The translations under genes and the position numbers were made by a program. Of a stretch of DNA of 64,000 bases, positions 45,701 to 64,000 are shown one piece after another. This stretch comes from Microbacterium sp. (GTDB lineage Bacteria > Actinomycetota > Actinomycetes > Actinomycetales > Microbacteriaceae). Where the stretch lies: assembly GCF_031180975.1 (NCBI RefSeq), contig NZ_JAPSLI010000009.1, positions 1-64,000 on the forward strand, in the 5' to 3' direction. How positions within the stretch are numbered: position 1 is the first letter of the stretch; every line of letters begins with the position of its first letter. The notes below the pieces were generated by a model. It had not been told where the DNA came from. It saw only the letters and a program-made list of their open reading frames with translations, and did no database searches.

Positions 45701-48700
45701 GCGGCTGCCTCGAGCGGGGTGTGCTCCCCGCATCGCGGGGATGATCCTTCGTCGTCAACCCGGCGGTGCGCATGCCGGCGAGTGCTCCCCGCATCGCGGG
45801 GATGATCCCCCTTGATCGCAAGAGTCCACACACCCCACGCGGTGCTCCCCGCATCGCGGGGATGATCCCGGGACGATACCGCCCTTGGCAGCGGTCATTT
45901 GGTGCTCCCCGCATCGCGGGGATGATCCCGGGCGGGTCGAGGTGCCGATGGTTGCGGCGCCGTGCTCCCCGCATCGCGGGGATGATCCCATGTCGTCATC
46001 CCTAGGTCAGTGCCAGGGGCGGTGCTCCCCGCATCGCGGGGATGATCCCTCTTCGGGCCGTACGTGAGTCCGCCCGGAAACGTGCTCCCCGCATCGCGGG
46101 GATGATCCCAGTCCATGTGGTTGGACGTGGTGCGTGCGGGCGTGCTCCCCGCATCGCGGGGATGATCCCCGGGACCGCCTCATACCAGTCACCGACAGCG
46201 AGTGCTCCCCGCATCGCGGGGATGATCCCCCACCCGGATTCGTGAGCGTCATACGCGCACCGTGCTCCCCGCATCGCGGGGATGATCCCGAGTTTCCCGA
46301 CGCGACGCGCCTGCAGCGGATGTGCTCCCCGCATCGCGGGGATGATCCCGAGTCCGAGCCGGTGGACGAGTGGGATGCCGCGTGCTCCCCGCATCGCGGG
46401 GATGATCCCATCACCGATCAGGCGCAGCACACCGGGGCCGGGTGCTCCCCGCATCGCGGGGATGATCCCACGGTGCAGTTGATCAGCCCACCGAACGCAC
46501 CGTGCTCCCCGCATCGCGGGGATGATCCGGTGGGTGTCGCATCGCGGCGGCTGGAGGTTCCGTGCTCCCCGCATCGCGGGGATGATCCCATCAACCAGGT
46601 CACAAAGGAAAACCAGCAGGCCGTGCTCCCCGCATCGCGGGGATGATCCGGCGAGACGTGGACAGCGATCGCTGAAGCCCTGGTGCTCCCCGCATCGCGG
46701 GGATGATCCCCAACCTCGAAGCGCCCGCGTGTCAGACTCCACGTGCTCCCCGCATCGCGGGGATGATCCCCACGTCGCACTGCTGCGTCCCGGTCACGTC
46801 GTGTGCTCCCCGCATCGCGGGGATGATCCCAGGTCGGCGTCCAGCAGGAGGATGACGTACAGGTGCTCCCCGCATCGCGGGGATGATCCACACCCGCCCG
46901 GCACTCAAAACAAGCACTTGATTGTGCTCCCCGCATCGCGGGGATGATCCCCCGCCGTCCATGCGAGCGATGATCGGTTCGGCGTGCTCCCCGCATCGCG
47001 GGGATGATCCCTCGGCCGTCACCTGCTCCGCAGTCGGGAACGCGTGCTCCCCGCATCGCGGGGATGATCCCGGGAGCACGGCAAGCTGCGACCTGTGTGT
47101 CCAGTGCTCCCCGCATCGCGGGGATGATCCGACGTGGCGGGTCACGTCCAGCAACCCTCGCGCCGTGCTCCCCGCATCGCGGGGATGATCCCATGTCGTC
47201 ATCCCCTTGAATGATTGGGAACCCGTGCTCCCCGCATCGCGGGATGATCCCGCTCCGGGCAGCGGCATCCCTGCCGGATTCATGTGCTCCCCGCATCGCG
47301 GGGATGATCCCCCGTTCGGGACGGCCCCGGAGGTGAACGTGCCGTGCTCCCCGCATCGCGGGGATGATCCTGGCAGAGCAGATCGCACGCGAGGCGTGGC
47401 GACGTGCTCCCCGCATCGCGGGGATGATCCGGCGCCCGTGCCGCTCATCATGCTGATTGTGCGGTGCTCCCCGCATCGCGGGGATGATCCCGCCCGTCCC
47501 GATGGCCTACTGTGACCGATGCGGTGCTCCCCGCATCGCGGGGATGATCCGGATCGTGCGTGCCTCACGGCGGGCCGAGTAGCGTGCTCCCCGCATCGCG
47601 GGGATGATCCCCGGGAGGTCTACTGCCGGCTGAGCATGGCTAAGTGCTCCCCGCATCGCGGGGATGATCCCACAACCCGACGCGTACCCATCGAGGGCGG
47701 CGTGCTCCCCGCATCGCGGGGATGATCCGTGGATCTCTTTGCCGTTGTTCCGGATGAAGAAGTGCTCCCCGCATCGCGGGGATGATCCAGAAGGCCCCAC
47801 GCTTGCGCGTACGCGTTCGCGGTGCTCCCCGCATCGCGGGGATGATCCGTCCTTCAAGCCCTCACGGAGGCTCTCTGAGTCGTGCTCCCCGCATCGCGGG
47901 GATGATCCCCACGTCGTACTGCTGCGTCCCGGTCACGTCGTGTGCTCCCCGCATCGCGGGGATGATCCGTCGTATCTGCGGTTGATGTCGGTTCGGGTGA
48001 GGTGCTCCCCGCATCGCGGGGATGATCCCGAACCGGGACGGCGTGTGGAAGCACCAGCTGTGTGCTCCCCGCATCGCGGGGATGATCCGCGCGCGCATCA
48101 CAGCCCACCCCAAACGGCCAGGTGCTCCCCGCATCGCGGGGATGATCCGAAGTCGCCGATGATCTGCGCGCCGCCGATCGCGTGCTCCCCGCATCGCGGG
48201 GATGATCCGTCGATCGCGTACTTCGCGCCGACGAGCACGGCGTGCTCCCCGCATCGCGGGGATGATCCCGCCTTGGTCTCGCTGGCGATCCCGACCTGGT
48301 AGTGCTCCCCGCATCGCGGGGATAATCCCGCCGGCGCGTGCGGGTCGACGTTGCGCGTCTGGTGCTCCCCGCATCGCGGGGATGATCCCGCTCGTGCGCG
48401 TTCTGTCGCCGTCGGCAGGTTGTGCTCCCCGCATCGCGGGGATGATCCCCGCTGAGCAGGTTCGCGTACACCTTGTCCGACGTGCTCCCCGCATCGCGGG
48501 GATGATCCCCAGCAGATGCGCGACCAGCTCGTCGCGTCGCAGTGCTCCCCGCATCGCGGGGATGATCCCGAGTCGGCGAACGCCGTCAAGGTGTCCTACG
48601 GGGTGCTCGCCGCATCGCGGGGATGATCCAGTAGTCCCACCGGACGATGAACGGCGAGTCGGCGTGCTCCCCACATCGCGGGGATGATCCGGAGTCGATG

Positions 48701-51155
48701 CAGGGAGCGATGAACCGGGCACGCAGTGCTCCCCGCATCGCGGGGATGATCCCCGGTACGCGTAGTCGTGGAGTTCGAACATCAGGTGCTCCCCGCATCG
48801 CGGGGATGATCCCTCACAGAAGAGACCGTTCGGGAGATCCGTGCGGTGCTCCCCGCATCGCGGGGATGATCCCTCGCCGCGCGACTGCTCCGTGGTCACA
48901 AGCTCGTGCTCCCCGCATCGCGGGGATGATCCCTATGCAGATGCGCGAGAGTCCACCGCTCGTAGGTGCTCCCCGCATCGCGGGGATGATCCCATCGCCC
49001 TGCCCTCCCCGTTCAACGACCGAACGTGCTCCCCGCATCGCGGGGATGATCCCGTGGGCGCCGGGTTCCATGTCGGGTCCGCGACGTGCTCCCCGCATCG
49101 CGGGGATCATCCCGGCGCGGCGATCATGTACCTGCCGTTGAAGGCGTGCTCCCCGCATCGCGGGGATGATCCCCGTTTCATCGCGATCGGACAGGGGGAC
49201 GAAGAGTGCTCCCCGCATCGCGGGGATGATCCTACGCACAGCACGGTGCGCCCGTCGTCCAGGTGGTGCTCCCCGCATCGCGGGGATGATCCCCCCGACG
49301 TCGCGTCGATCGTGGGGAAGTTCGTGTGCTCCCCGCATCGCGGGGATGATCCCGCCTACCGTGACGCCGTAGAGGCGCGCACATTGTGCTCCCCGCATCG
49401 CGGGGATGATCCCCGCGACGGGGAACGCTACGGGTCCCTGCACACGTGCTCCCCGCATCGCGGGGATGATCCCCACAACCGCACAACGTCACCGACATCG
49501 ATCGGGTGTGCTCCCCGCATCGCGGGGATGATCCGGTGCCCGCTGCATCCGGTGGACGGCCGCCGCCGTGCTCCCGCATCGCGGGGATGATCCCCTCGAT
49601 GGTGTCACGGGTGGGTCCGCGGATGTGTGCTCCCCGCATCGCGGGGATGATCCCCGGCGGAGACGTGGGATGCGTCGATCCTGGTGGTGCTCCCCGCATC
49701 GCGGGGATGATCCCAACGCAGCCGCCCGTCAGCAGACCATCGCCCGGTGCTCCCCGCATCGCGGGGATGATCCCGAGGTCGTCGGCACGTTCCAGGACGA
49801 CAACGGGTGCTCCCCGCATCGCGGGGATGATCCTCGATCGCGGCGCGGCCCTCGTCGTCTTCTTCCGTGCTCCCCGCATCGCGGGGATGATCCCGGATCG
49901 CTGACGTGATCCTCACCCAGTTCGACGTGCTCCCCGCATCGCGGGGATGATCCGTAGGCGATCGTGCCTGCGGTCTCATCCAGTGAGTGCTCCCCGCATC
50001 GCGGGGATGATCCCGAACCGTGCGCCGCCAGTCGGCGAGTCAGGTCGTGCTCCCCGCATCGCGGGGATGATCCCCCGACGACGCCCTGACGGTCAGTGCG
50101 TGCGTCGTGCTCCCCGCATCGCGGGGATGATCCCCTCCGCGGCGCACAATCCGTCACCGGCCCGACGTGCTCCCCGCATCGCGGGGATGATCCCCGCTCA
50201 GCGAGCGCATACTCGGATTGACGAGGCTGCTCCCCGCATCGCGGGGATGATCCCGATCTTCGTCATGGCGAGCATGACAGCGTCACGTGCTCCCCGCATC
50301 GCGGGGATGATCCCGGCACGACGCCGCCCTTGGCAGCGGTCATCTGGTGCTCCCCGCATCGCGGGGATGATCCCGGGTCTGGGTGGAGGTGACGGTCGTC
50401 TTCAGGGTGCTCCCCGCATCGCGGGGATGATCCCCCCTCGACTCCGTCGCGCACGTTCTTGATCTGGTGCTCCCCGCATCGCGGGGATGATCCCTCGACC
50501 GCCTGCGGTCCGGTCAGCCAGGTCTCGTGCTCCCCGCATCGCGGGGATGATCCCGTGTGGTGTGTATCAGCGTGAATCGCTACCCCATGCTCCCCGCATC
50601 GCGGGGATGATCCCGGGTTGCCGCCGCCCGTCGCGCCGGCCGCGCCGTGCTCCCCGCATCGCGGGGATGATCCGTCGCGCGAGACGAGCAGGCTGATACG
50701 CATCGGGTGCTCCCCGCATCGCGGGGATGATCCACGGGTCGTTCGAGCTGACACCATCCCAGTGGGGGTGCTCCCCGCATCGCGGGGATGATCCCAGAAG
50801 AAGGTCTCAGCCAAAACGGTGCGGAACGTGCTCCCCGCATCGCGGGGATGATCCCCCGCCGGGACGTTGGTAATCCGCCAGCGCCCAGTGCTCCCCGCAT
50901 CGCGGGGATGATCCCCCTCCGAACGCGTTGGCCGCGACTTCCTGGAAGTGCTCCCCGCATCGCGGCGATGATCCCAGCAGCGCCTCGTGCGCCGAAAGGT
51001 CGTAGTTGTGCTCCCCGCATCGCGGGGATGATCCCCCAAGCACCTTGTAGTCGCGGAAGATCGACTTGTGCTCCCCGCATCGCGGGGATGATCCCCCGAC
51101 CGTGATGCCGGCATGGATCAGCCACGGGTGCTCCCCGCATCGCGGGGATGATCCC
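39771..51155 (+). CRISPR. type I-E CRISPR array, 190 repeats and 189 spacers
   Basis: A 28-nt repeat, GTGCTCCCCGCATCGC then GGGGATGATCCC, recurs with a period of 60 (sometimes 61) from 39771 to the last copy at 51128. The stem CCCCGC/GCGGGG has an ATC loop, one base shorter than the common 29-nt I-E repeat. The last base varies: mostly C, often G, rarely T or A, as expected if it derives from the protospacer-adjacent motif. Spacers are about 32 nt; the one after 44098 is about 35. Changed repeats appear only in the right half, for example near 47225, 48302, 48603, 48664, 49086, 49568, 50227, 50587 and 50948. This marks the right end as old. Some spacers are duplicated. Confidence 0.97.
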
Positions 51156-51223
51156 GGTGTCAACGTCGGCTGAATTCTGACCCCTTATCGACGGTCGAAT
51201 ATTGACCCCCTCGGGGTTGGTTG

Positions 51224-52009
51224 TTACTGGTTTCCGCCCGGGGTGGGCGGGGTCTTGAGGAGCTCGCGGCGGGCGCGGGTCCGGTAGGAATCGCCGCCGA
51301 GGGTGAGGACTTCGGCGTGGTGGACGAGGCGGTCGATCATCGCGGACGCGACGATGTCATCGGAGAGGATCTCGCCCCAGCGGCCGAAGGGCATGTTGCT
51401 GGTGACGAGGATCGAGCCTTGCTCGTAGCGGGACGCGATGAGCTGGAAGAACAGGTTTGCGGCGTCGGCGTCGAAGGGCAGGTAGCCGACTTCGTCGATG
51501 ATGAGGAGCCGGTAGCGGCGCAGACGTTTCAGTTCGTGCTCGAGGCGGCCTGCCTGGTGTGCGGTCTGCAGGCGGGTGACCCAGCCGGTCGCGGTGTCGA
51601 ACAGTACCGGGTAGCCGGCGTGCGCGGCTTTGATGCCGAGCCCGATCCCGAGGTGGGTCTTGCCGACGCCGGGCGGGCCGAGCAGGATCACGTTCTCCGC
51701 TTTCGGGATCCAGGTCGTCGTCGCGAGGTGCGCGAGGACGTCTCGGCGCAACGAGGGCTGGTGGTCGACGTTGAAGTCCTCGAGGGTCTTCATCGCGGGG
51801 AAGTGTGCCCCGGCGATCCGCAGCGCCGTGCCGTTCGCTTCGCGGTCCGCGACCTGGCGTTGCAGCACGGCGGTGAGATACTCCTGGTGCGACCAGCCCT
51901 GGTCCCTCGCGGTGCTCGCGAGCTGTTCCCAGACCCACCCGACTCGTGGGGGTCTTCAAAGCCCGCACCAGGTAGCCCATCGTCGCCGCAGTATCGGTGG
52001 TGCGCCCAT
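51224..52009 (-). pseudogene. istB: IS21 istB ATPase, frameshifted
   Basis: IstB is the AAA+ helper that loads IS21 transposase on target DNA. Walker A LLGPPGVGKTH and Walker B LLIIDEVGYLPFDADAANLF are intact in the main frame. The N-terminus is broken in two places. After MGAP one base is missing, so the next part, MGYLVRALKTPTS, is in another frame. A 4-base insertion near RVxW then shifts into the frame of SHQEYLTAVLQRQVADREAN. The ATG at 52009 overlaps the istA TGA, as usual in IS21. A 214-residue product from an internal GTG (51868) is possible but would lack the N-terminus. Confidence 0.82.
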
Positions 52010-53051
52010 CAGAGCACCTCCCCGGTCGCGGGGTCGAACCGGACGCCGAACAGGGCGTCGTAGTCGGACGTGTCGCGGAACATCACCCGCTGCTCCGGTC
52101 CGACCCCCCCTGCGCGTTCCCGCTCGCGTTTCGCGGCGGAGAACTGGGACCGTAGCCCTTTCGCGGTGACCACGTGGCCGGGGTCGGTGACCGTCGCCGC
52201 GGTCGCCCAGCAGCGTTCGTGGTCAGCGACCGCGGTCCCGTCGCAGACCACGATCACCCGGGTCAGCGTCGCGGTGACGTCGACGAGCCGGCCGGTCACC
52301 CGCGGGTCGACGGAGTAGTCGTTCCCGTCGACGCGGACGTAGTAGTCGCGTCCGAGGCGGACGCGCGCTTGCAGGCCCGTGGCCGGAGGGTGCGGCGGCA
52401 GCACCGTCATCGCCGCGAGATCACGATCGAGGACATCGACCGGACGCCCGCCGAGCGAGCGCACCCTCCTGTTGTTCGCTTTCGGCAACCAGCCGGCCAG
52501 CTGGCCGTTGATGTCCGTCGGAGACGCGAACTGCCGGCCGGGCAGGAACGACGTCTCCAGGAACCCGTTGTTGCGTTCCGTCATGCCCTTGAACTCCGGA
52601 TCCCGCGGCGGGGCGAGGACGATCCGCGTGGCGAGGGTCCCCGCGAACGCGGCCGCGGCCTGCGTCACGACGCCTTCCCGCCGATCGCGGCCTCTCGATC
52701 CCAGACCAGCGTCTTCGACACCGCGCCGACCTGCGAGATCAGCTGCCACATGCCCGCCAGCAGATCGCCTGCCTGACGCGAGGGGAGCATCACCGCGGTC
52801 AGGAACCTCGAGAACGTGAGCGTCATCACCAGCACCGGCAGCATCGCGGCCTGCCCGAACCCGACCGGGATCCGCGGCTCGGGGAACCACAGATCCATCT
52901 GCGCCGCCTGTCCCGCCTCATGCACCAGCCGGTCCGCGGGATCGACGCCGGTGTTCCGCGCGACCCCGAGATGCCGGACGATCGCCTTGATCGGCATGCC
53001 CTCGGCCCTATGCAAACGGCGAATCTCCGCCCAATCTTCCACTGAAATCAC
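52009..53051 (-). pseudogene. istA: IS21 istA transposase, deleted and frameshifted
   Basis: The N-terminal helix-turn-helix part is present (ISVEDWAEIRRLHRAEGMPI, then KAIVRHLGVARNT) and jumps directly to PADRLVHEAGQAAQMDLWFP of the DDE catalytic domain. About 80-100 codons are missing. Then TLVWDREAAIGG runs into a stop because of a one-base loss. The rest of the core continues in another frame: FAGTLATRIVLAPPRDPEFK, with GMTERNNGFLETSFLPGR after it, and a C-terminal domain ending DYDALFGVRFDPATGEVL. A functional transposase cannot be made. Confidence 0.85.
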
Positions 53052-53194
53052 CCTCCAAGAGCGTCGGAGGGGGTCAAGATTCACCCGTCGCCTCGGGGTC
53101 AGTATTCACCTGTCGTCGACACCCGCCTGGTCAGTGTCCAGGAATCGGGGGCAACCTCAATCCCACAGTCGCCGCAGAAGGGGCGGGAGGGGGC

Positions 53195-53613
53195 GTGCTC
53201 CCCGCATCGCGGGAAGTGACACCACGCTACGGACTCACCCACCGGTCGATCTGCTCACCCGTTCGTCAACGTGATCACGCCCTGGTGCTCCCCTCATCGA
53301 GGGGATGATCCCAGCCACCCGCACGAGCAACGCGGCTGGTGGTAGTGCTCCCCGCATCGCCGGGATGATCCCGGCGCCGACCTCTCCGTTCTCATCTGCC
53401 TGGCGTGCTTCCCCGCATCGCGGGGATGGTCCCCACGCCTGCATGCGCTCCTGATCAGCCGTATGGTGCTCCCCGCATCGCGCGGATGATCCCGGGGGTT
53501 CGGTCTCCACTACGAGGAACAACATGTGCTCCCCGCCTCGCGGAGACGATCCCAGGCCTACGTGAGCAAGCCGGGAGCCGGCCCGGTGCTACCCGCATCG
53601 CGGGGATGGCACT
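53195..53613 (+). CRISPR. decayed trailer end of the CRISPR array, seven degenerate repeats
   Basis: Repeat-like copies start at 53195, 53285, 53345, 53405, 53466, 53526 and 53586. All carry changes: GGGAAGTGAC instead of the handle at 53195, CCTCATCGAGG at 53285 (a compensated stem change), an extra T at 53405, CGCGCGG at 53466, CGCCTCGCGGAGAC at 53526, and GATGGCACT at 53586. The spacing of 60-61 is kept from 53285 on. They were cut off from the main array by the IS21 element and lie 42 bp from the cas2 stop codon. Confidence 0.88.
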
Positions 53614-53654: not shown

Positions 53655-54011
53655 TCAGTACCCCTTGCGCCGCCGCGCAGCCTTGCTCCATCCGGTCGCG
53701 GGCGCCGATTCCCTCTGACTGGCGGGAACGGGTTGGGAATCCGCGGGGCGCAACATCAGTGTGAGCCCGTCGACGTCGATGGGCTCCCAATGATGTCCAT
53801 GCACGAGAACCGACATCCCCTGCTCATTCCGCGCCGAGAAAACAAGGATCGCGCGCCCAGTCCGCACCATGCTGATAGTGCGTTCCCAGAGCAGTTCACG
53901 CACTCTCTTACTCACTTTTCCGACGAACACGCCGGCAGAGATCTCAAGAAGCCAGCGGGTGAGAAACCCCCGCAAGCCCGGCGGAACCGCGGTCAGCACG
54001 AGGACGATCAT
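53655..54011 (-). CDS. cas2: Cas2 (type I-E), CRISPR adaptation subunit
   Basis: A 118-residue protein matching Cas2e: MIVLVLTAVPPGLRGFLTRW, LLEISAGVFVGKVSKRVREL and LWERT, with the PIDVDGLTL strand near residue 80. Cas2 dimers bridge two Cas1 dimers during spacer integration. The tail after residue 90 is an extra basic Ser/Ala/Arg-rich stretch compared with E. coli. The ATG at 54011 overlaps the cas1 TGA. It is the last gene of the cas operon; its stop is 42 bp from the final decayed repeat, which comes from the opposite direction. Confidence 0.95.
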   Translation of the reverse strand: MIVLVLTAVPPGLRGFLTRWLLEISAGVFVGKVSKRVRELLWERTISMVRTGRAILVFSARNEQGMSVLVHGHHWEPIDVDGLTLMLRPADSQPVPASQRESAPATGWSKAARRRKGY

Positions 54012-54964
54012 CAGAACGGGACCTCACCGTAGTTGGCTCCACCCGCGACTGCTCGACGGGATCCATCCCAGAGCTGCACGACGTTGTCGGAAAGGTCGAG
54101 GTCGGAGGCTCCCGCGTCATCTGGTTCATCCGGGAGGAGAAGGTGGCGGATATCTCGCACGCATCGTTCCAGGAACGAGCCGCCGTGGAAATGGTCCCGA
54201 AGGCGCCGACGTGCTTCCCCTCCGATGTCGAATGGCTGTTCCGCGGCCAGCTCGAACGCCAGAGGGATCGTCAGCTCGGCCTTATACAGATCAGCGATGT
54301 CGTAGACGAATGAGCGGATGTGACCGGTGTGCACGAACCCCAGACCTGGGGAGCAACCGAGCGCGACGATCACCGAGTGAACAACGCCGTACATGCTCGT
54401 GTTCGCCGCCGAGAGAGCCTGATTGACCGGATCGCTGTCCTCGAAAGCCTCGACGTCGTATGACCTGCCGTTCCACGGCACCCTGTAGCGTTTCGAGCTC
54501 TCCCGATACGCCTTCCGCACACGAGCACCCTCGCGGCCTCGCAGTTGCTGCATAGTGAGACCGCTCGTCTCCTCTCCCGGGAATCGCATCGCATACATCT
54601 CTCGCGCGACGCGCAGGCGGGCACTCTGATTGGTCATGAGTGCAGCTTGAGCTTCGAGGAGTTTGGAGCTGTGCGCCAACGATCTGCCGTGCGCGTAGTA
54701 CCGCACGCCCTCCTCACCGACCCAGACCACCGTCGACCCGCTCTCCGCCATCAAGACCATGGCCTGCTGCGTAACCGTCGTCCCGGGCCCCAGCAGCAAC
54801 GCCCCCACCGCGGCCGCTGGGATGTGAATGGTCCCGCGTTCGTCCGTTGCCGTGATCGCGTTGGCGTCGCGATGAATCCGACAGCGTTCCAGGTAGATGA
54901 AGGTCATGCGATCCTGGGCGCGCACGAGTTCCGGCAGCGAAGGCGGCTTCGCCCCGGCGACCAT
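54011..54964 (-). CDS. cas1: Cas1 (type I-E), CRISPR integrase
   Basis: A 317-residue integrase. The N-terminal beta domain includes MTFIYLERCRIHRDANAITA and the helical domain carries the metal site: Glu in the SAANTSMYGV region, His in FVHTGHIRSFVYDIADLYK, and Asp of the same DIADLYK motif. It cuts and joins new spacers at the leader-proximal repeat together with Cas2. The ATG at 54964 lies two bases after the cas6e stop; a longer reading from 55000 would overlap cas6e. All expected residues are present, so adaptation should work. Confidence 0.96.
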   Translation of the reverse strand: MVAGAKPPSLPELVRAQDRMTFIYLERCRIHRDANAITATDERGTIHIPAAAVGALLLGPGTTVTQQAMVLMAESGSTVVWVGEEGVRYYAHGRSLAHSSKLLEAQAALMTNQSARLRVAREMYAMRFPGEETSGLTMQQLRGREGARVRKAYRESSKRYRVPWNGRSYDVEAFEDSDPVNQALSAANTSMYGVVHSVIVALGCSPGLGFVHTGHIRSFVYDIADLYKAELTIPLAFELAAEQPFDIGGEARRRLRDHFHGGSFLERCVRDIRHLLLPDEPDDAGASDLDLSDNVVQLWDGSRRAVAGGANYGEVPF

Positions 54965-54966
54965 AT

Positions 54967-55620
54967 CTAACTCACCGCCGCGATCGTCATCAACCCGCAA
55001 CCGTAGCCTTTGGCGCGACCCAGTCCATGGGTAAGCGTGGCGACGAATGCGTCTCGATCGATCACTTCCAGCAAGCCCTCATACGTGACGACCCGCAGCG
55101 TCACCGAGTCCTCCCGCCTTCGAAAAGTGATGAGCTTGCGGTCTCTGATGAGCACTGCCTTCTGATCGTCATCCCCGTCGACACGAAAGCCACCCCGATG
55201 CTGCCGGTTGAGAAGCCACTCTTCCTGCTGCGACACGGTGACGTGCCCGAACGGTTTACCACGCCCGCCGGGAACAGGGCGCGTGCTGCGCGTCGGATTC
55301 GCGGTCAGACGGAAGGCGTATCGGTGCCCGACCTCGATTCGACCGAGCACCCGCTGGTACGGCCGCGTCCGCCATCCGTCCTCGAGACTCGGCCATCCCG
55401 CCTGTTCCGCCAGATGGGTGAGGTCCGGCTGACCGGGTGAGACGATCAGCAGCTTCGCCTGATTGCGGGCGCTGTCGAGTCGCCACAGCACCCGTCCCTC
55501 ATCCGTAGCGGACGGATCAGGAAAGCCCGCCAGTACGGCCGCGTGAAGCGCATGCGGTGATGACAGGAGCTTCTGGGCGCCACGCCGCACCGGGTTGAAC
55601 ATGAACTGCGTGAGGTACAT
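54967..55620 (-). CDS. cas6e: Cas6e (CasE), crRNA-processing endoribonuclease
   Basis: A 217-residue RAMP protein with two ferredoxin-like folds. The N-terminus MYLTQFMFNPVRRGAQKLLS carries the family's catalytic Tyr/His region (HALHAAVLAGFP). The C-terminal Gly-rich loop HGLGRAKGYGCGLMTI is diagnostic. It cuts pre-crRNA at the base of the repeat hairpin and stays bound to the 3' end of the guide. The ATG at 55620 overlaps the cas5e stop (ATGA). It should also cut the two repeat-like hairpins upstream of cas3, whose stems keep the CCCCGC/GCGGGG core. Confidence 0.95.
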   Translation of the reverse strand: MYLTQFMFNPVRRGAQKLLSSPHALHAAVLAGFPDPSATDEGRVLWRLDSARNQAKLLIVSPGQPDLTHLAEQAGWPSLEDGWRTRPYQRVLGRIEVGHRYAFRLTANPTRSTRPVPGGRGKPFGHVTVSQQEEWLLNRQHRGGFRVDGDDDQKAVLIRDRKLITFRRREDSVTLRVVTYEGLLEVIDRDAFVATLTHGLGRAKGYGCGLMTIAAVS

Positions 55621-56378
55621 CAGATCTCCTCATCGTCCAGAAGAAGAAACGGGTCGTGCTGCGTCGGCGAACCCAGAAGTCGTTCAGCCCGGGGATCACC
55701 GCCCACGTTCCCGGGAATGGGCCGCCGCCCAGGAAGCGACAGCATCACGCGCTCGATCACGACGTCGCGAGTGCCGTGCTTCCGCCTCCTCGGATCGAAG
55801 CTCTCCGGGACATCACTGCGCGATTCGCCCGGCGGGTCACCTTCGACCGCATCGGTGATGAGGTGCAAGGAGATACTCTCGGCGCGGGCGGCACTCGCGT
55901 GGTGAGCCTTTGCTCTCCAGGGCGCTTCCCTCAACGCCGCACGAAGGGGCGCGTCCACCAGTTCCGCTCTGATCGGTCCGTCCGGTGGGAAGGCTCGTCG
56001 TCCTAAGAAGAGTGGGAAGTACGGCCGCGCGAGCGCCTCCTTGAACTCGACGAGCTCCTCGCGCGGGCCCGAGATCCCCACCAGGAACACCGCGTCCGCC
56101 AGATAGTACCGCTGGGACAACGGAAACGCCCTCGAACCGTCCAGCGACCGCGTGGTCTGGAAATCACGCTCGAGGTGTCCTGGCTGATCTATCCGCACCC
56201 CGAAGCCAAGGTCGCGGAATCGATCCAGAGGTTCGGTCCGCGCCATCCCCAGTGCCGCGGCCAAGAGCCCGATCACTCCGCTCCGCGTCGGAGCAAGCTC
56301 TGTTGCGCGTGTGGAGAATCGGCTGCGTGAACCCCAGGCCTGCTGGGGTCCGCGGAGTTCGATCAGAAGTGTCGTCAT
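55620..56378 (-). CDS. cas5e: Cas5e (CasD), Cascade subunit
   Basis: A 252-residue RAMP protein that caps the 5' handle of the crRNA. MTTLLIELRGPQQAWGSRSR and FSTRATELAPTRSGVIGLLA are the typical Cas5e start, and KHGTRDVVIERVMLSLPGRR lies in the C-terminal half. The start overlaps the cas7e stop and the stop overlaps the cas6e start (both ATGA). The length is normal. Confidence 0.94.
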   Translation of the reverse strand: MTTLLIELRGPQQAWGSRSRFSTRATELAPTRSGVIGLLAAALGMARTEPLDRFRDLGFGVRIDQPGHLERDFQTTRSLDGSRAFPLSQRYYLADAVFLVGISGPREELVEFKEALARPYFPLFLGRRAFPPDGPIRAELVDAPLRAALREAPWRAKAHHASAARAESISLHLITDAVEGDPPGESRSDVPESFDPRRRKHGTRDVVIERVMLSLPGRRPIPGNVGGDPRAERLLGSPTQHDPFLLLDDEEI

Positions 56379-57529
56379 CGGTCATCCTGGAGACGCTGCG
56401 CGGTGAGCTCACCGGCGCGCTTGACAGCTGCATCGAGCGTCACGCTCTCGCCGAGTCGGTCAAGCGGCGCGGCGGCCGGTGCAGCCCGAACGACCCATGT
56501 TGCGACCGGCGTCGTGCCGTATGCCGCGTCCACGCTGGCTGCGTGCTCGGCGAGCGCAGCGCTCGCCTTCCCGATTCGCGAGCCCTCTCGAATGGGCTCT
56601 TCGAAAGCGCCCACAAGGTTCACAGGCTGCGAATCCCGCACTGTGATCACAATGGCATCCGGAAGCGTGCGGTTGGCGAACGTGTTCTGCTTGCCGGTGG
56701 GCATGCTCCGACTGAATGCCTGGAGAAACGCTTCCACCGCGCGACGTGTCGCATCAGCGCCTCCTCCATCGCCGTGTCCGAGGTTGTCGTGCAACCTGTT
56801 CACATCGATGGTCGCGTATCGGTAGAGCGTCGATGACGAGAACTCGACCGTTCCGATCATCCCGGCTCCGGCGTCTTCCTCTGTGTCCGCAGCCTTGTGA
56901 TCGTCGACGGCAGTGAAGTAGTCAAACTCAGTCTCGACGGGATGGACGCTGATCGCATGCGCCACCTGAGCCGACGCATCCACGTTGAGGTCGCTGGAGT
57001 CAGCGACCATGCGCCCAAACAGCGCCAGGTCGACGGAGTGTTCCACATCGAGGGATCTCTTGAGCCCGGCGCCCTTCAACGAGGCCTCCGGGTCCTGGGC
57101 GGCGTTCGCTGCGATCGCGGCTTCGGCGAGGTGATCGATCTGACGCGCACTGAGGAACAGAAGGTACCCGGACTCCGCGGGAAGAGGGTTCTCTTTCGTG
57201 GACTTCCGCGATTCGGTCAACTTGATCCCCGCCGCTCCGAAGGCGAGTGTCGCCAGCTCGAGTGCCCGCGCGGGGGGAATGCTGTCATCCTTCTGGTGGA
57301 TGCGCTCAGCGAGCAGCTCGACGACCCGCTTGGTGCGTGTGCCGAGATCCTCTTGATCCAGCAGGCTCGCGAACGCGACACGGGTGGCGCGCTTCCATGC
57401 TTGGCTGGACACGCGTGAGCGCCGGACTCCGCCGTAGACCGCGGTCTTCGGGCTGCCGGTGTCATCGCGGTTGATGTTCGACGGCGGAACCGTCTGGAGG
57501 ATGTTGATGTCGATGATGGTGCGGGTCAT
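56375..57529 (-). CDS. cas7e: Cas7e (CasC), Cascade backbone subunit
   Basis: A 384-residue RAMP protein, six copies of which form the helical backbone along the spacer. The start IIDINILQTVPPSNINRDDT, with GSPKTAVYGGVRRSRVSSQAWKR after it, is characteristic. Cas7e thumbs force every sixth crRNA base out of pairing, which matters for the crRNA-like element upstream of cas3. The ATG at 57529 has an AAGGAGC site; the gap to cse2 is 19 bp, the only real gap inside the operon. The extra site may help higher production of this multi-copy subunit. Confidence 0.95.
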   Translation of the reverse strand: MTRTIIDINILQTVPPSNINRDDTGSPKTAVYGGVRRSRVSSQAWKRATRVAFASLLDQEDLGTRTKRVVELLAERIHQKDDSIPPARALELATLAFGAAGIKLTESRKSTKENPLPAESGYLLFLSARQIDHLAEAAIAANAAQDPEASLKGAGLKRSLDVEHSVDLALFGRMVADSSDLNVDASAQVAHAISVHPVETEFDYFTAVDDHKAADTEEDAGAGMIGTVEFSSSTLYRYATIDVNRLHDNLGHGDGGGADATRRAVEAFLQAFSRSMPTGKQNTFANRTLPDAIVITVRDSQPVNLVGAFEEPIREGSRIGKASAALAEHAASVDAAYGTTPVATWVVRAAPAAAPLDRLGESVTLDAAVKRAGELTAQRLQDDR

Positions 57530-57548
57530 GGCTGCTCCTTGAGTTCGT

Positions 57549-58214
57549 TCAGTGGTCGTTGGCCGTGATTGCGTCGGACTCAGGCGATCCCTCGTCAGGT
57601 GCGTCGTCCTTGGGGTGGTGCGTGCGGTAGAAGTCGCGCCCCCACGAGGTGCGCACGCGCTCGGCGCGGTCGCCCCGCAGGTCGAAGAGGTCCCTGGCGA
57701 ACTGGCCGTAATCGAGCGGGATCTTGTGCTGCCGGAACTGCTGGATCAGCCCCCGAGCGTGATGCACGGTCTCGTCCCACGTCGTGGCGGTTCCGAGCGC
57801 GGTGAATCGCCGGCGCACCGCGTCGCGATTTCCGCTGTGACGGCCGAGGAGACGCGCTGAGCGCCCGAACGAGTATCCGCCGCGATGCATCGATGCCTCC
57901 CGGCGCGACTGCTGATGCATCGCAAACAGCGTGATCGCGGTGAACGCCGCTTCCTCCTCTCGCGTGATCCCGTCCCCGCGCAGCGACAGTTCGTCGAAGA
58001 GCGATCCGGCGTCTCCGTCCTCAGTCCGAGGGTTCTCGAAGGCCAGTCCGAACAGCTCGATATCCTCGCCGGGGCGCCGTCCGATCCCGCGGCGCAACCG
58101 CGCCAGAGCGGCCACCGCATCGCTCCGATCCGCACGGTACCCCGCCTGCAGCCGGCCGACGCGGCTGGCGACGTATTCCGCCATCCTGTCGGCGCGTCCC
58201 TGATCCATAGTCAT
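57549..58214 (-). CDS. casB: Cse2 (CasB, Cas11e), Cascade small subunit
   Basis: A 221-residue all-helical small subunit. The pattern DAVAALARLRRGIGRRPGED near the start and QQSRREASMHRGGYSFGRSA in the middle is typical of Cse2. Two copies line the displaced strand in Cascade. The ATG at 58214 overlaps the cse1 TGA and has a GAGAAGGA site. A longer reading to 58352 would overlap cse1 and is not supported. The final 20 residues are acidic. Confidence 0.93.
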   Translation of the reverse strand: MTMDQGRADRMAEYVASRVGRLQAGYRADRSDAVAALARLRRGIGRRPGEDIELFGLAFENPRTEDGDAGSLFDELSLRGDGITREEEAAFTAITLFAMHQQSRREASMHRGGYSFGRSARLLGRHSGNRDAVRRRFTALGTATTWDETVHHARGLIQQFRQHKIPLDYGQFARDLFDLRGDRAERVRTSWGRDFYRTHHPKDDAPDEGSPESDAITANDH

Positions 58215-59872
58215 GCGTCCTTCTCCTCTCCATCGATCGTCTGTTCCTGGGCCTCCACGTGCAACGCGAAGATGCTGCGCAGGGACCTGAGGAACCTGCT
58301 TTCCGCTCGCGGAGTGTTCATGAGGTCCCCTTGGATCTCGCGTCCCGCCCATGCAGCCGGACCTGAGCCCCGGACCAGGTCGGTCCCGAGTTCACGCAAC
58401 ACCCCGTGGGCCGTGTCACGCCAGCCGGTGATCGCCTCGTCCGGGTCAGTGTCGCTGTCGAGGCCCGCAAGCCACTCGCGGTACAGCACGTCCAGGCGCG
58501 CATAGGCGGCTGCCTCGGCACGGCCCTTCTCCCCCTCGCCATCGCCGCCGGCGGCACGCGAGAGGTTCTCGGCCAGATAGCGCAGGGCGCGCACCCCCTG
58601 ATCAGCTAGCGACACCGCATTCTCAGCGATCGCGGCGAGCGCCGTGTCGTCCCTGCTCAGAAGCGCCATGGCCACTGTCACTCTGTCGTCGATGATCTCA
58701 TCGACGACAGAGTTGTTGCTCCCGTAGAGCACCCCGACCGCCCGGAGGTTGACTCGTCGGTTCGCTCCAATCTCTTGCATCCGCTCCGCTGCAGCCTCCG
58801 CCACCGCAGGACTGATGAAGCGCTGATGCTCGACCTTCTTCGCATCCCTCAGCTTCTGCGAGTTGGCCACTCCAGGGAGAATCGCGCCGATGCCCCGCCA
58901 GAACGCTCGACCTGGCTGGTGCTCGCGGGGCATGAAGGTCGGCGCACCCGCCCTTTTCGACTGCGGTTCGCTGTAGCGCCATCCGCTGAGCGGCTCGTGG
59001 TTCTGCTGGTTCTGAGGGGTGAGCGCATCGCCGTTAGCCAGCACGCAGCCCACGATCCGGTCGTGCTCCGAGACGAGCCGGATCCGACGCGACTGCCAGG
59101 TGAAGAGCCGAACCGGGCCGCTGGGGACCAGACCGCTTCTGTCCGCGGCGGTGTCGGGGCTCTCGTCCTCCCAGGGCGGCACGTCGGTGCGGCCGTCCGC
59201 ATCGATACCCCGGCCCGGGGACACGAAGTTGAGCAGCAGGGTCTCACGCAGATCCGCACCTTCAGCGAAGACACCGCCGAGAAGACCTGCCCACGCGACT
59301 CCGATGGGGTAGCCCTTCCCGCCCTTGACGCGATTGTCCCCCACCGCGCCGGATTTGATGCCGGATGCATCGAACGCCTGCACGTTCACGAGCCAGCGTG
59401 CCGCTTCAGCGAACGACAGGCGCATCGACTCGAGACCCGCTCGTGTCGTGAACAGCCTGTTGTTGCTCGGAAGATCGAAGATCAGCGGGGCCGTGTTCTT
59501 CACCTCGCCCTTCGCGGTGTGCAGGTCCGCCACCTGGAAGAACGGACGCTCTGGGTGCAGCAGATCGAAGCGATCGGCGAATTCGTCGAGGTAGTCACCG
59601 ATGTCGTCCAGCGGGAGCCCCTCTTCCCACCAGGAGGTCCAGTCGTCATGCCAGGTGTCGCGTTGCTCGTCGTAGGAGGCGCGATAAAGGATCGCGAGCA
59701 GGAGCCGGAGGATGGCGAATGTCTGCGTGGGCAGTTCACCGCTCAGTTCACGGATGCGCGCGGCATCCGTGAACGCCGCCCTCAGCGACACGTCGGTCGT
59801 CGACCCATCGAGATAACGCACGGTGATCCACGGCTCTGTGAGCAGGTCGAAATGGGGCCGCACCGATTTCAT
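58211..59872 (-). CDS. casA: Cse1 (CasA, Cas8e), Cascade large subunit
   Basis: A 553-residue protein that reads the protospacer-adjacent motif and recruits Cas3. FDLLTEPWITVRYLDGSTTD is the family start. PLIFDLPSNNRLFTT, FDASGIKSGAVGDNRVKGGK and YPIGVAWAGLLGGV are conserved Cse1 segments. A four-helix bundle forms the C-terminal third. The start overlaps the cas3 stop and the stop overlaps cse2 (ATGA at both ends). The length is normal. Confidence 0.94.
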   Translation of the reverse strand: MKSVRPHFDLLTEPWITVRYLDGSTTDVSLRAAFTDAARIRELSGELPTQTFAILRLLLAILYRASYDEQRDTWHDDWTSWWEEGLPLDDIGDYLDEFADRFDLLHPERPFFQVADLHTAKGEVKNTAPLIFDLPSNNRLFTTRAGLESMRLSFAEAARWLVNVQAFDASGIKSGAVGDNRVKGGKGYPIGVAWAGLLGGVFAEGADLRETLLLNFVSPGRGIDADGRTDVPPWEDESPDTAADRSGLVPSGPVRLFTWQSRRIRLVSEHDRIVGCVLANGDALTPQNQQNHEPLSGWRYSEPQSKRAGAPTFMPREHQPGRAFWRGIGAILPGVANSQKLRDAKKVEHQRFISPAVAEAAAERMQEIGANRRVNLRAVGVLYGSNNSVVDEIIDDRVTVAMALLSRDDTALAAIAENAVSLADQGVRALRYLAENLSRAAGGDGEGEKGRAEAAAYARLDVLYREWLAGLDSDTDPDEAITGWRDTAHGVLRELGTDLVRGSGPAAWAGREIQGDLMNTPRAESRFLRSLRSIFALHVEAQEQTIDGEEKDA

Positions 59873-62769
59873 ACAGGGATCTCACTTTCAGGCATGGTCT
59901 TGCGGGGCGAGAACGAGAGGCCGTCTTCGGCCGTGTACTGCAGATCGAAGGGGTCCAGGACGGCGCCTCCTCCGGCGTCGAGAACCAGCACCAGCTCACC
60001 CCGCAGAGCGTGACTGCCATGCCATGCCGGAGCCGGGTAGCGATCCTCGAGCGTGCGGATGTGGCGATCGATGAGCGCCCCGCGGCAGACAGCCGCGGGG
60101 AGACGCAACGAACAGCCGAGCATGACGGTCGTCAAGCGATGATCCGGGCGGACCTCAGTCGGGATCGGGATGCCGCCCTTGCCATCGCCCAGCCAGGACG
60201 GGGTCTGCAACCTGCCGTCTGTTGCCTGTTGAAGGACGAGCACTTCCAGCGTCTCGTCCGTGTCGCGGACGGCTCCCTGCGCGAGCGGGTCACGATCGGG
60301 GTCACCGGCGTCGTACCTGATCCAGTTGATGAGGTTCGCCCTTGGTTCCCGGAACACCTCGTCGAGCAGGAAGGTCGTCGCCTTCGCCCTGGATCGTGCC
60401 GCCGCCTCTGCGGAGCGGATTCGCGCACTCTCGATCACCTCGTCCCAGAGCCCGAGCGGCGTATCGCTGTACACGGCCTGCACGAGCGAAGGGGTGTCAT
60501 CCGGCAAGGTGATCTGCGCCCTTCCATCGAGAACGGCGAAGGTGCGCAACAGCACGGCGCGGTCGTAGACCATGGTGTTGCCCCTGTAGGTCTCCGGTGG
60601 AGACTCGTTCCACTGCGTCCCCGCGATGACGAGTCGCGGCGTCTTAACCCGCTCCGGCCTGCCGGAACGCGCATGGCGATGCAGCCGGCCTGCGCGTTGA
60701 ATGAGCAAGTCGATAGGCGCGATGTCGGTGACGAGCAGATCGAAGTCGAGGTCGAGGGACTGCTCGACCACCTGCGTCGCCACGACGATGTGCATCTGCG
60801 GGCGGTCGCCGTTCGGTCCGAACCTGGCGAGCAGCCAGCGATCCCTCGCTGCGCGATCCAAACCGAGAAAGCGAGAATGCGCGACGGTCACGTTATCAGG
60901 GCCGAAGACATGGCGAAGCGAGGAGGCCGTGTGCTGCGCACGAGCGACAGTGTTGCGGATGACAACCGCGCAGCCGCCTTCGTGTAGAGCCTCCGCCAAC
61001 AGTGAGCAGAGCGTCGCATCATCGTCGGTGATCCGCTCGATCCGCGAAGAGCGCGCGCGCCCCGTGGCACCTGGCATCACGATCTCTGGTGCGTTGCCCG
61101 GTCGAGAGATCACGATGGACGGGTAGCCGATGTCGCCCGTGAGCGAGGGGAGAGGATCGGATGCCAGGGGAGCTCTGCCTTCTTCACGTGCCGCTCGCCG
61201 TTCGGCCCTGCCGAGCCGCGCGCCGGCCTGCGCCTTCGGGCGCCCGCTCTCGTACGCCGCAACGAACGCCTTCCGCCGCTCGGCGGGAAGCGTGGCCGAA
61301 AGCATGATGACCGGCACCTCGTACGACCCGAGCCAGTGCAGGATGCGCTCCAGGTACTGACTCATGTAGGCGTCGTACGCGTGGACTTCGTCGAGCACGA
61401 CCACTTTGCCGGCAAGGGCGAGATGACGCAGCGCGACATGGCGCGTGCGCAGTGCGCCGGAGAGCGCCTGATCGATGGTCCCGACGACGAGACTCGACAA
61501 CGGACCCCGCTTGGCATCCGCCAACCACTCATGCGCGCGAACCAGTTCGTCGTCACTGCTTCTCCGGCCGGGATCGCCGATGGCGCGGAAGCGAGCGTCC
61601 TGACGCTTCCTGGCGTTCTGCTCATTCAGAGCTGACTTGCCGTGGGCGAGGAAGACGTTCACCGGCGCTTCGAGGTCGAGGTGCTCCGCCCAACGCAGCA
61701 GGCGGGCGAACATTCCGTCGGCCGTCGCTTGCGTCGGCAGGCCTAGAAAGACCCCACTGCGTTCGAATCGAGCAGCGAGGATCTCCGCCGCGGCGAGGGC
61801 CGCCTCCGTCTTACCTATCCCGGTGTCCGCTTCGAGGATCATGAGGGTAGGGGACGGCACCTCACGCGCGAGACGCATCATCTCCCGCTGCACAGGGCGC
61901 GGGTCGCCGTCGATGCCGAAACGATCGCGGAAGAGCACGGTGTCGTCCTCCGGAGGACGAGCGGTCCAGGGGGCGGGGAGATCCAAGTCGTCCCACGCGC
62001 GCACAGCGCGCTGCTCGGCACTTTCGCGTGGCTGCTCCCTGAGATCGACGAGCGGAAATCGCTCGCTGCTGGCGATCCAGTCGGCGACGATCACAATCGC
62101 GCTGAGGAGCACGAGCACGGGTTGAGAAAGGGATGCCGTGCGCCAGGCCTCGATGTGCGAACCCAGTTCGGAAGTGATCGACTCGATCATCTCGAACCGC
62201 GTTTCGGCCCAGAGGCCGGTGCCATGCAGTCGCGTGTCTGATGCGGTGAGGTGGATGGCGAGCGGCCCGGGCGGTCGCCCGTGGTGTGCCGCGAGGACGC
62301 TGCCGAGCTTCGCCGCCTGCATGCGTTCGAATCCGTGCCGCATCTCAAGCCACTGGGAGACCGCCAGATGACTGACGATCTCGTGCCGAGCGACCTGACG
62401 CTCAGGCGTGCCCTCGATCGTGCCCGAGAAGCTCAGACCGGCGTCACGCATCGGATGGGTGAGCTGTCGCACCTGGATCGCGAAGGCGGGACTGATCTTG
62501 CCGACGTCATGCTGGCCGGCGAGCCACACCGCGAGTGAACGCGCTGCCGGCTCGCTCCCGAGGTCGGCACTGATGATGTGCCGCACAGCCGGCGACAGCC
62601 AGCGGTCCCACAGCAGTCCGGCGACCGCGGCGGTGTCGGCCAGGTGCTGGTGCACGGGAAGCCACCCGATGATCTCACCCGTCACCGGGTCCGCATCGGA
62701 CTTGGCCCAGGCCCAGAGGGCTGCGGGGGACAGCCCCCTAGGCGGCTCGACGTCGATGTCGGTGGCCAT
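59869..62769 (-). CDS. cas3: Cas3 helicase-nuclease (type I-E)
   Basis: A 966-residue effector. The N-terminal HD nuclease has GQHDVGKISP (His 87, Asp 88) and AAHHGRPPG near 161. The superfamily-2 helicase has Walker A ADTGIGKT at 314-321, DEVH at 460-463, SATLP, and late motifs QVVEQSLDLDFDLLVTD and QRAGRLHRH. Cas3 is recruited by Cascade and degrades DNA. I chose ATG 62769 because a GGAG site precedes it and a promoter lies upstream; an in-frame reading to 62826 would run through the -10 and -35. It is the first gene of the operon. Confidence 0.95.
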   Translation of the reverse strand: MATDIDVEPPRGLSPAALWAWAKSDADPVTGEIIGWLPVHQHLADTAAVAGLLWDRWLSPAVRHIISADLGSEPAARSLAVWLAGQHDVGKISPAFAIQVRQLTHPMRDAGLSFSGTIEGTPERQVARHEIVSHLAVSQWLEMRHGFERMQAAKLGSVLAAHHGRPPGPLAIHLTASDTRLHGTGLWAETRFEMIESITSELGSHIEAWRTASLSQPVLVLLSAIVIVADWIASSERFPLVDLREQPRESAEQRAVRAWDDLDLPAPWTARPPEDDTVLFRDRFGIDGDPRPVQREMMRLAREVPSPTLMILEADTGIGKTEAALAAAEILAARFERSGVFLGLPTQATADGMFARLLRWAEHLDLEAPVNVFLAHGKSALNEQNARKRQDARFRAIGDPGRRSSDDELVRAHEWLADAKRGPLSSLVVGTIDQALSGALRTRHVALRHLALAGKVVVLDEVHAYDAYMSQYLERILHWLGSYEVPVIMLSATLPAERRKAFVAAYESGRPKAQAGARLGRAERRAAREEGRAPLASDPLPSLTGDIGYPSIVISRPGNAPEIVMPGATGRARSSRIERITDDDATLCSLLAEALHEGGCAVVIRNTVARAQHTASSLRHVFGPDNVTVAHSRFLGLDRAARDRWLLARFGPNGDRPQMHIVVATQVVEQSLDLDFDLLVTDIAPIDLLIQRAGRLHRHARSGRPERVKTPRLVIAGTQWNESPPETYRGNTMVYDRAVLLRTFAVLDGRAQITLPDDTPSLVQAVYSDTPLGLWDEVIESARIRSAEAAARSRAKATTFLLDEVFREPRANLINWIRYDAGDPDRDPLAQGAVRDTDETLEVLVLQQATDGRLQTPSWLGDGKGGIPIPTEVRPDHRLTTVMLGCSLRLPAAVCRGALIDRHIRTLEDRYPAPAWHGSHALRGELVLVLDAGGGAVLDPFDLQYTAEDGLSFSPRKTMPESEIPV

Positions 62770-62797
62770 CGCAATACTCCAGTCATCAGATGAACCG

Positions 62798-62826
62798 AAG
62801 CTACACGCCGAACCAGCAACCGTCAA
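62798..62826 (-). promoter_or_regulatory. promoter of the cas operon
   Basis: TTGACG (62826-62821), a 17-base spacer, and TAGCTT (62803-62798) form a good housekeeping-type promoter reading toward cas3. Transcription would start near 62790, leaving a leader of about 20 bases with the GGAG site. The AT-rich segment ATTTATAAAG lies directly upstream of the -35. Confidence 0.7.
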
Positions 62827-62839
62827 TACCCTTTATAAA

Positions 62840-62860
62840 TCCCAACACAAAATCTCGTTG
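62840..62860 (-). promoter_or_regulatory. protospacer-like site next to the cas promoter
   Basis: CAAC (62860-62857) followed by GAGATTTTGTGTTGGGA (62856-62840) repeats, with one change, the segment between the two repeat-like hairpins 80 bp upstream. The AAC flank fits a type I-E PAM. A full 32-nt protospacer counted from 62856 would reach 62825, covering the first bases of the -35 box. Confidence 0.7.
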
Positions 62861-62888
62861 CTGTAATAACGGACGGGGAAAGTAGCCG

Positions 62889-62966
62889 GGATGGACCCCC
62901 GCGATGGCGGGGAGCAACTGTCCCAACACAAGATCTCTGGATCACCCCCGCGTTCGCGGGGAACGT
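62889..62966 (-). ncRNA. putative crRNA-like regulatory RNA (CreR-like) upstream of cas3
   Basis: Read on the minus strand, a repeat-like unit GTTCCCCGCGAACGC then GGGGGTGATCC (to 62939) is followed by 20 bases, AGAGATCTTGTGTTGGGACA (62938-62919). A second repeat-like unit follows, GTTGCTCCCCGCC then ATCGCGGGGG (62918-62896), with a decayed handle. Both hairpins keep the stem cut by Cas6e. GAGATCTTGTGTTGGGA matches 16 of 17 bases beside the cas3 promoter. The only mismatch is at position 6, a base that type I-E Cascade flips out. Single crRNA-like RNAs that lead Cascade to its own promoter are known as CreR/CreA in other type I systems. A promoter for this RNA was not identified. Confidence 0.65.
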
Positions 62967-63117
62967 GCCAACTGTATGCACTGATCCTTGGGGTCGTCCC
63001 AGAGTCGAGCTTCAGCGGCCGGTGGCCATTCGCTCAACCTCGACTCCCCGGGAGTAGCCATCCACCCGCCGCCGGTAGACTGGCCGTGCCCCGCCTCCCT
63101 CTCCTCCAGGAGCCCGC

Positions 63118-64000
63118 GTGACCGCCGCCCCCGAAGCATCCACCACTCACGTCCCCGACTCCGTCGAGAACGCGCTCGCGACGCCCGAGAAGGAGCAGCC
63201 GTACGCGGCGCTCGGCCTCAAGGACGACGAGTACGCCCGCATCAAGGAGATCCTCGGCCGCCGCCCCACCTCGGGCGAGCTCGCCATGTACTCGGTGATG
63301 TGGTCGGAGCACTGCTCCTACAAGTCGTCGAAGAACTATCTGCGCCGGTTCGGGCAGAAGGTCTCCGACGAGATGAAGAAGCGTCTCATGGTCGGCATGG
63401 GCCAGAACGCGGGCGTCATCGACGTGGGTGAGGGCTGGGCCGTCACCTTCAAGGCCGAGTCGCACAACCACCCGTCGTTCATCGAGCCGTTCCAGGGCGC
63501 CGCGACCGGCGTCGGCGGCATCGTCCGCGACATCATCTCCATGGGCGCGCGCCCCGTCGCCGTCATGGACGCCCTCCGCTTCGGCGCGATCGACCACCCC
63601 GACACCCCGCGCGTCGTGCACGGCGTCACCGCCGGCATCAGCTTCTACGGCAACTGCCTCGGCCTGCCCAACATCGGGGGCGAGACGGTGTTCGACGCCG
63701 TCTACCAGGCCAACCCGCTCGTCAACGCCCTCGCCGTGGGCGTCCTGCGCCACGAGGACCTCAAGCTCGCGAACGCCACCGGCGTCGGCAACAAGGTCGT
63801 GCTGTTCGGCGCCCGCACGGGCGGCGACGGGATCGGCGGTGCCAGCATCCTGGCATCCGATTCCTTCGACTCGACCGGCCCGACCAAGCGACCCGCCGTG
63901 CAGGTCGGCGACCCGTTCGCCGAGAAGGTGCTCATCGAGTGCTGCCTCGAGCTCTACAAGAAGGAACTCGTCGAGGCCATCCAGGACCTCGGCGCCGCCG
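63118..64000 (+). CDS. purL: phosphoribosylformylglycinamidine synthase II PurL (5' part, cut by window end)
   Basis: The first 294 residues of PurL, which makes FGAM from FGAR, glutamine and ATP in purine synthesis. [20 protein letters not shown] is the signature of the actinobacterial and B. subtilis small PurL. The ATP-binding motifs [20 protein letters not shown] and [20 protein letters not shown] follow. The GTG at 63118 has an AGGAG site; the gene continues past base 64000. A TAGACT (63077-63082) could be its -10. It is divergent from the cas operon and marks the end of the CRISPR locus. Confidence 0.95.

Follow-up and report, generated by a model that had tools for sequence, protein, structure and literature searches.

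A candidate CreR-type autoregulatory guide upstream of the type I-E cas operon in Microbacterium sp.

A degenerate mini-CRISPR between purL and cas3

The window, a 64,000-nucleotide stretch of a Microbacterium sp. contig, carries a complete type I-E operon, which presumably is what the element regulates and also supplies Cascade and Cas6e. Its cas3 gene, with the ATG at 62769, is divergent from purL, and the intergenic space between the two holds a mini-CRISPR element (Table 1). The type I-E CRISPR array near cas2 is very long, and its orientation runs against the cas operon. An IS21-type element (IstB and transposase pieces, at about 51155-53284) splits it between the repeats at 51128 and 53285. 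The array spacers are mostly 32-33 nt long. Two of them, at 46771 and 47910 and thus about 1.1 kb apart, differ in one base, and a similar pair lies near 45870 and 50315; these near-identical pairs reflect either repeated acquisition from related targets or duplication of the array. A phage-match search covering part of the array (45100-51200) returned two spacers with matches at E below 0.1: spacer 46050-46081 matched the minor capsid gene of Microbacterium phages Wyvern and Isperia (86% over 43 bases, Wyvern), and spacer 48150-48181 the tape measure gene of phage Isperia (94% over 34 bases).

Table 1 Features of the cas locus and of the mini-CRISPR element in the window
Feature	Position	Strand	Remarks
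CRISPR array, 193 repeats	39771..53612	+	opposite to the operon; ends about 40 bases from cas2
Type I-E operon cas3-cas8e(cse1)-cse2-cas7-cas5-cas6e-cas1-cas2	53655..62769	-	NCBIfam matches
Candidate -10 box of the cas promoter, TAGCTT	62798..62803	-	17-nt spacing; consensus scoring, too weak for the strict scan
Candidate -35 box of the cas promoter, TTGACG	62821..62826	-	starts 30 nt after the first target base; consensus scoring
Target site GAGATTTTGTGTTGGGA	62840..62856	-	16/17 match to the guide, mismatch at position 6
PAM-like flank 5'-AAC	62857..62859	-	
Second degenerate repeat	62889..62917	-	hairpin CCCCGCCATCGCGGGG (62912-62897) kept, handle lost (GTCCATCC)
Predicted mature guide RNA, 49 nt	62897..62945	-	8 handle + 20 guide + 21 of the 3' repeat; putative Cas6e cleavage
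Pseudo-spacer (guide), 20 nt, GAGATCTTGTGTTGGGACAG	62918..62937	-	
First degenerate repeat	62938..62966	-	hairpin CCCCGCGAACGCGGGG (62961-62946) and 8-nt 5' handle GTGATCCA (62945-62938)
Candidate -10 box for the guide RNA, TACAGT	62971..62976	-	25 nt before the handle; putative, consensus scoring

The element consists of two repeat-like hairpins around a 20-base pseudo-spacer on the cas strand, an anatomy already proposed by an earlier sequence-only reading and confirmed here by the sequence and by direct-repeat analysis. The handle of the first repeat resembles the ATGATCC(C) of the 193 array repeats, and this repeat was the sole zero-mismatch match genome-wide to a hairpin-plus-handle pattern with a 4-nt loop, the array repeats having a 3-nt loop. 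Both hairpins were present in the RNA fold of the element, whose overall stability was not unusual (z -1.62; 15 of 200 shuffles equally stable), and an Rfam search of 62700-63120 gave zero matches up to E 1. The predicted mature RNA follows the rules by which Cas6e processes type I-E crRNAs. We rejected an ordinary CRISPR array or self-targeting spacer, for which conserved repeats and a full-length spacer of 32-33 nt are expected; here the repeats are degenerate, the spacer has 20 nt and the match covers 17. Two CRISPR-like repeats outside the array that enclose a pseudo-spacer near the cas operon, as in a CreR, are found at 62889-62966.

The sequence-only reading had also matched the first 17 guide bases, position 6 excepted, to a site upstream of cas3, and alignment of 62921-62937 with 62840-62856 bore this out (16/17). 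With up to three mismatches allowed, a pattern search for the 17-mer found two places only in the 3.23-Mb genome, the guide and the target. When 236 handle-defined guides were compared with about 25 foreign cas3-upstream regions each (5,860 comparisons), the best 17-mer match reached at least 16 once. Given this uniqueness and rarity, the guide-target match is not a product of chance. The flank AAC had been proposed as a plausible PAM. In type I-E systems the last repeat base comes from the PAM, and the base after ATGATCC in the 193 array repeats was C in 141, G in 37, T in 8 and A in 7. AAC is plausible as a PAM because C is the commonest of these, but it is not proven as a functional one at the target: the two phage protospacers that were followed had the flanks AAG and AGC, neither of them AAC, and the same AGC site occurred in a second phage.

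A strict promoter and terminator scan of 62700-63130 found nothing, and the promoter boxes in Table 1 come from softer consensus scoring and are guesses. The paired -35 candidate for the guide RNA was poor by this scoring, and the guide's own candidate promoter weak. The protospacer had been thought to reach the -35 box of the cas promoter. This holds for a 32-nt protospacer, which would reach TTGACG, but the actual guide has 20 nt, and its pairing would stop near 62837-62840, which leaves about 10 bp to the -35 candidate. For this reason a block of polymerase by direct occlusion at the cas promoter would be likely but not certain. Limited seed-type complementarity to a candidate cas promoter beside a putative PAM, the targeting mode of CreRs, is present at the sequence level (16/17, AAC).

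Guide/site pairs in related cas3 loci

We collected cas3-upstream regions from cas3 searches of overlapping samples, whatever the CRISPR subtype of the relatives: matches came from the family (20 of 398 genomes, E 1e-30), the genus (6 of 366), the order (40 of 248) and the class (23 of 148, E 1e-60), and 61 named contigs were added. The resulting 148 regions exclude loci without an N-terminal cas3 match; 16 were dropped as repeat or shorter fetches, for upstream sequence below 300 bases, for a contig start inside the gene or as duplicate sequences, which left 132. A first rule required a hairpin, an 8-nt handle like ATGATCCN and a guide, with a site at most 450 nt from cas3 and no more than 3 mismatches over positions 1-14, all of which counted alike. 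The handle rule and a repeat filter were applied since array repeats matching each other had inflated an earlier pair scan.

In the 132 regions the first rule yielded 236 guide-like elements and 51 matches in 24 regions. Fifteen of these matches, in 13 regions, had AA at -3/-2, where region swaps would lead one to expect 0.30 (15 in 89,714 own-region comparisons; 14 in 4,186,173 swapped ones), and 119 regions were without an AA match. The other 36 were array repeat self-matches, chance matches and a pair at L014 (flank TAC) that looks genuine. Repeat self-matches persist among the 51, and only the 15 AA-flanked matches enter the statistics; one of them, at the AT-rich, low-complexity L077, is probably due to chance.

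Because the first rule had been set after inspection of examples by eye, 16 previously unused genomes were examined. With the rule frozen, one of their 16 regions gave an AA match (L170), and the other three pair-bearing regions needed a seed rule: identity at positions 1-5, 7 and 8, at least 3 of 7 later positions matching, an AA flank and a site within 600 nt. Under the seed rule 4 of the 16 regions held a pair, against 9 of 240 swapped pairs (0.6 expected); all four had an [AG]TGANCC handle, and position 6 was mismatched in five of five pairs. Applied to the first set, it picked out 29 of the 132 regions, compared with 84 among 2,566 swapped pairs; repeat self-matches (L016, L148) and chance matches are part of this count. 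Sixteen of 18 listed guides ranked their own region first among the 132, and those of the close relatives L125 and L127 tied with each other; these guides had been chosen for having a match, and the ranking is an illustration and no test.

Pairs were found at 22 loci in total. Within the genus, four of the six cas3-bearing genomes have one, with four unrelated guide sequences: guide GAGATCTTGTGTTGGGA with site AAC-GAGATTTTGTGTTGGGA in the window (L002), GCTAATGCTCGAGGAGT with AAT-GCTAAAGCTTGGGGAGT (L003), GTTGAACTCTTCAGGG with AAC-GTTGAACTTTAAAGGG (L024) and GCTGGCGGATACGCATC with AAC-GCTGGCGGTTACGCATC (L025). By eye, no pair was seen in the remaining two, L026 (with a TGA in the cas3 frame) and L027. 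Other genera of the family contribute L011, L014 and L019; other families of the order L089, L094, L095, L096, L102, L110, L125, L127, L165, L166, L168 and L170; the class elsewhere L137; and named contigs beyond those searches L055 (a Prevotellaceae MAG) and L074 (Secundilactobacillus kimchicus, two sites). L014, L019, L055, L094, L127 and L137 came from looser scans and stand outside the 15 AA matches; the pairs of L137 and L095 are weaker than the rest. Guide sequences are unrelated between most loci, the exception being L125 and L127. The sequence-only reading had named independent divergence of guide and site in related loci as an outcome that would refute it. The comparison gave the opposite: the guide differed between species, and the site upstream of cas3 had changed along with it. 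At L074 and L165 a single guide faces two nearby target sites, both AA-flanked.

The seed of type I-E guides comprises positions 1-5 and 7-8, and every sixth base is flipped out. Among the 33 mismatches of the 15 AA matches, 1 fell at positions 1-5, 7 and 8, against 548 of 1,047 in the swap control (Fisher p 1.6e-9), and 19 at positions 6 and 12, against 120 of 1,047 (Fisher p 6.5e-10); of the rest, position 9 accounted for 7 and positions 10, 11 and 13 together for 6. Without L077, 17 of 29 mismatches lay at 6 and 12 and zero at 1-5, 7 and 8. Mismatches thus spare the seed and gather at 6 and 12, the pattern to be expected from a Cascade R-loop, and this indicates that the sites carry the Cascade pairing rule, left there by evolution. 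The available portion of a CreA study gives a similar rule, with positions 1-5 and 7-11 needed and 6 and 12 free (PMC8501985). Position 9 was mismatched in 7 of the 15 AA pairs, above its neighbours.

Guide length and target position

The distance to the next hairpin, as measured by program at 18 loci, was 19-22 nt in 11 and 30-34 nt in 5. At L095 and L110 the program (33 and 53 nt) had picked a different hairpin, and inspection by eye gave 20 and 32. With this correction 12 of the 18 guides are short, two of them from close relatives, and 6 are long; the guides of L166 and L168 also have 20 nt by eye. TGATCC follows the second hairpin in none of the 18 tabulated loci (L095 and L110 by eye), and in L003 the second repeat is part of an array with repeats ending in TTGGTTC. 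A second repeat lacking the handle would be tolerable, because the 3' end alone needs none.

One Cas7 module covers 6 nt, so the 12-nt shortfall relative to the array spacers equals two modules. E. coli Cascade with shortened spacers is said, in the title of one report, to be still capable of interference, which speaks against a simple reading of the short guides. The short guides resemble engineered short-spacer crRNAs used with active Cas3 in Haloarcula, where spacers of 20-24 nt repressed while interference and priming were lost; unlike the elements described here, those were designed and belong to type I-B, and 20 nt was weaker than 21-24 nt (PMC10989794, in the part available). A second type I-B study, again as far as its accessible text goes, has spacer length switch between repression and cleavage (PMC10551041). 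We consider it possible, at slightly less than even odds, that a short-guide CreR class is widespread in the type I-E systems of this group. With about 20 nt, two 6-nt modules short of the normal 32, these guides would then build a Cascade with two fewer Cas7 subunits, dedicated to gene control; guide length would separate regulation from cutting, and guide and site would have been replaced pairwise and repeatedly, giving each species a private key. If the short guides prove real, guide length would be nature's means of preventing an active Cascade-Cas3 system from cutting the host chromosome, which would be of direct use for gene control by native type I systems.

According to consensus scoring, the start of the best -35 candidate follows the first target base by 29-34 nt in the four genus loci and L170, by 14-24 nt in L011, L014, L074, L110, L125, L127 and L165, and by 5-7 nt in L102, L166 and L168; in L055 it precedes that base by 10 nt. 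The same scoring found no cas-side -35 candidate in 6 of the 22 loci (L019, L089, L094, L095, L096, L137) and no guide-side promoter candidate in 4 (L024, L089, L110, L165). The target lies 85-116 nt before cas3 in the four genus loci and 366-557 nt upstream of it in L019, L074, L137 and L165, for which the regulated transcript could be another one.

Proposed autoregulation and competing explanations

CreRs, cas-regulating RNAs from mini-CRISPRs, were reportedly described by Liu et al. (2023, Cell Host Microbe). In the accessible portions of three papers they autorepress the cas genes of types I-B, I-E and V-A by pairing partially with the promoter, and both the abundance of crRNAs and anti-CRISPRs elicit a response from them (PMC13131331, PMC12737573, PMC12948488). 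The element in the window shares with them a mini-CRISPR RNA, here predicted, and partial complementarity to the candidate cas promoter; its guide has 20 nt against mostly 32-33 nt in the array. Its anatomy and targeting strongly support its classification as a CreR, a new example with similar ones in related bacteria. The sequence-only reading knew of no such element in this group of bacteria. The kind itself is known; we found no account in the literature that places CreRs in this group or describes guides as short as about 20 nt, although the primary CreR work might contain one, and for the recurring guide of this length we could not find a description.

The anatomy, the plausible PAM, the seed-type complementarity, the partner-specific co-divergence and the position of the target just upstream of cas3 are features of the DNA itself. 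They point to a CreR-type autoregulatory guide of the type I-E system that damps its own cas operon through Cascade, a reading to which we assign a probability of about 0.87. The feedback brake proposed earlier thus gains support from the co-diverging pairs and the seed-type mismatch pattern; we infer repression itself, as well as transcription, processing, binding without cutting and the logic of release. The two-repeat mini-CRISPR would be transcribed towards cas3, and Cas6e cleavage of the transcript would yield a crRNA-like RNA, about 49 nt long, that contains the 20-nt guide. At 62859-62840, immediately before the -35 candidate of cas3, guide-loaded Cascade would recognise AAC and the seed and open a short R-loop, about 17 bp in length. 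A guide this short, with an unpaired far end, would not recruit Cas3 productively, so that the DNA would stay uncut, and the bound Cascade would hinder RNA polymerase at the cas promoter. A shortage of Cascade, its sequestration by other crRNAs or its block by an anti-CRISPR would release the cas promoter, a logic drawn from the CreR literature.

A guide with the role of an antitoxin, as CreA has in the CreTA/CrePA logic, is improbable here. The target promoter would then drive a small toxin RNA or protein, and cas3 would stand behind it by position only. As far as the available text of the CreA papers goes (PMC8501985, PMC9458426), CreA does share the degenerate repeats, a similar seed rule with 6 and 12 free, a PAM, a promoter target and the location at a cas locus, and the distant targets of some relatives (366-557 nt from cas3) fit such a role. 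Those cases are nevertheless haloarchaeal and of type I-B, CreA represses a toxin RNA, and its first repeat is the more diverged one, whereas in the window the second repeat lost its handle. In the window, moreover, the 70 nt from the target to the cas3 start are filled by the candidate promoter and leader, and cas3 is the only frame of at least 90 aa starting there on the minus strand; a very short toxin RNA or peptide would escape this length limit. The short target-to-cas3 distances in all four genus loci also argue against a toxin.

It is very improbable that Cascade, placed just upstream of the -35 box (at about -65 to -46, provided that the candidate -10 is correct), activates the promoter, alters local topology or primes spacer acquisition instead of repressing. 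A 20-nt R-loop would indeed fall short of the -35 candidate by about 10 bp, but the CreR and CreA cases are repressors in the portions of the papers available (PMC13131331, PMC12737573, PMC12948488, PMC8501985), and the best -35 candidate, a consensus guess, lies inside the target at an offset of +5 to +17 in L166, L168, L102, L074, L110, L165 and L011. Most improbable is a decayed CRISPR remnant, a spacer once taken from the cas promoter and now degenerating with no regulatory function, even though self-acquired spacers exist (PMC8501985, available part), both repeats are degenerate and a full array lies in the same locus. Spacers like those of the array would match over their full length of mostly 32-33 nt, not over 17 of 20 nt. 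Nor would decay limit mismatches to positions 6 and 9-13 across species (without L077), leave the flank and the handle in place, or show up again in four genus loci, each time in an unrelated sequence.

An autoregulatory CreR guide at this locus would offer a bacterial type I-E case, open to clean tests, in which CRISPR directs the repression of itself, and the roughly twenty natural guide/site pairs let the Cascade seed rule be read from evolution. It also predicts that anti-CRISPRs against Cascade should turn the cas genes on in these bacteria. A T run follows the second mini-repeat hairpin in L074, L166 and L168, so that this hairpin may double as a terminator of the guide RNA. The mini-CRISPR of L055 has the target site on one side and cas3 on the other, and guide and cas mRNA may therefore share the repressed promoter.
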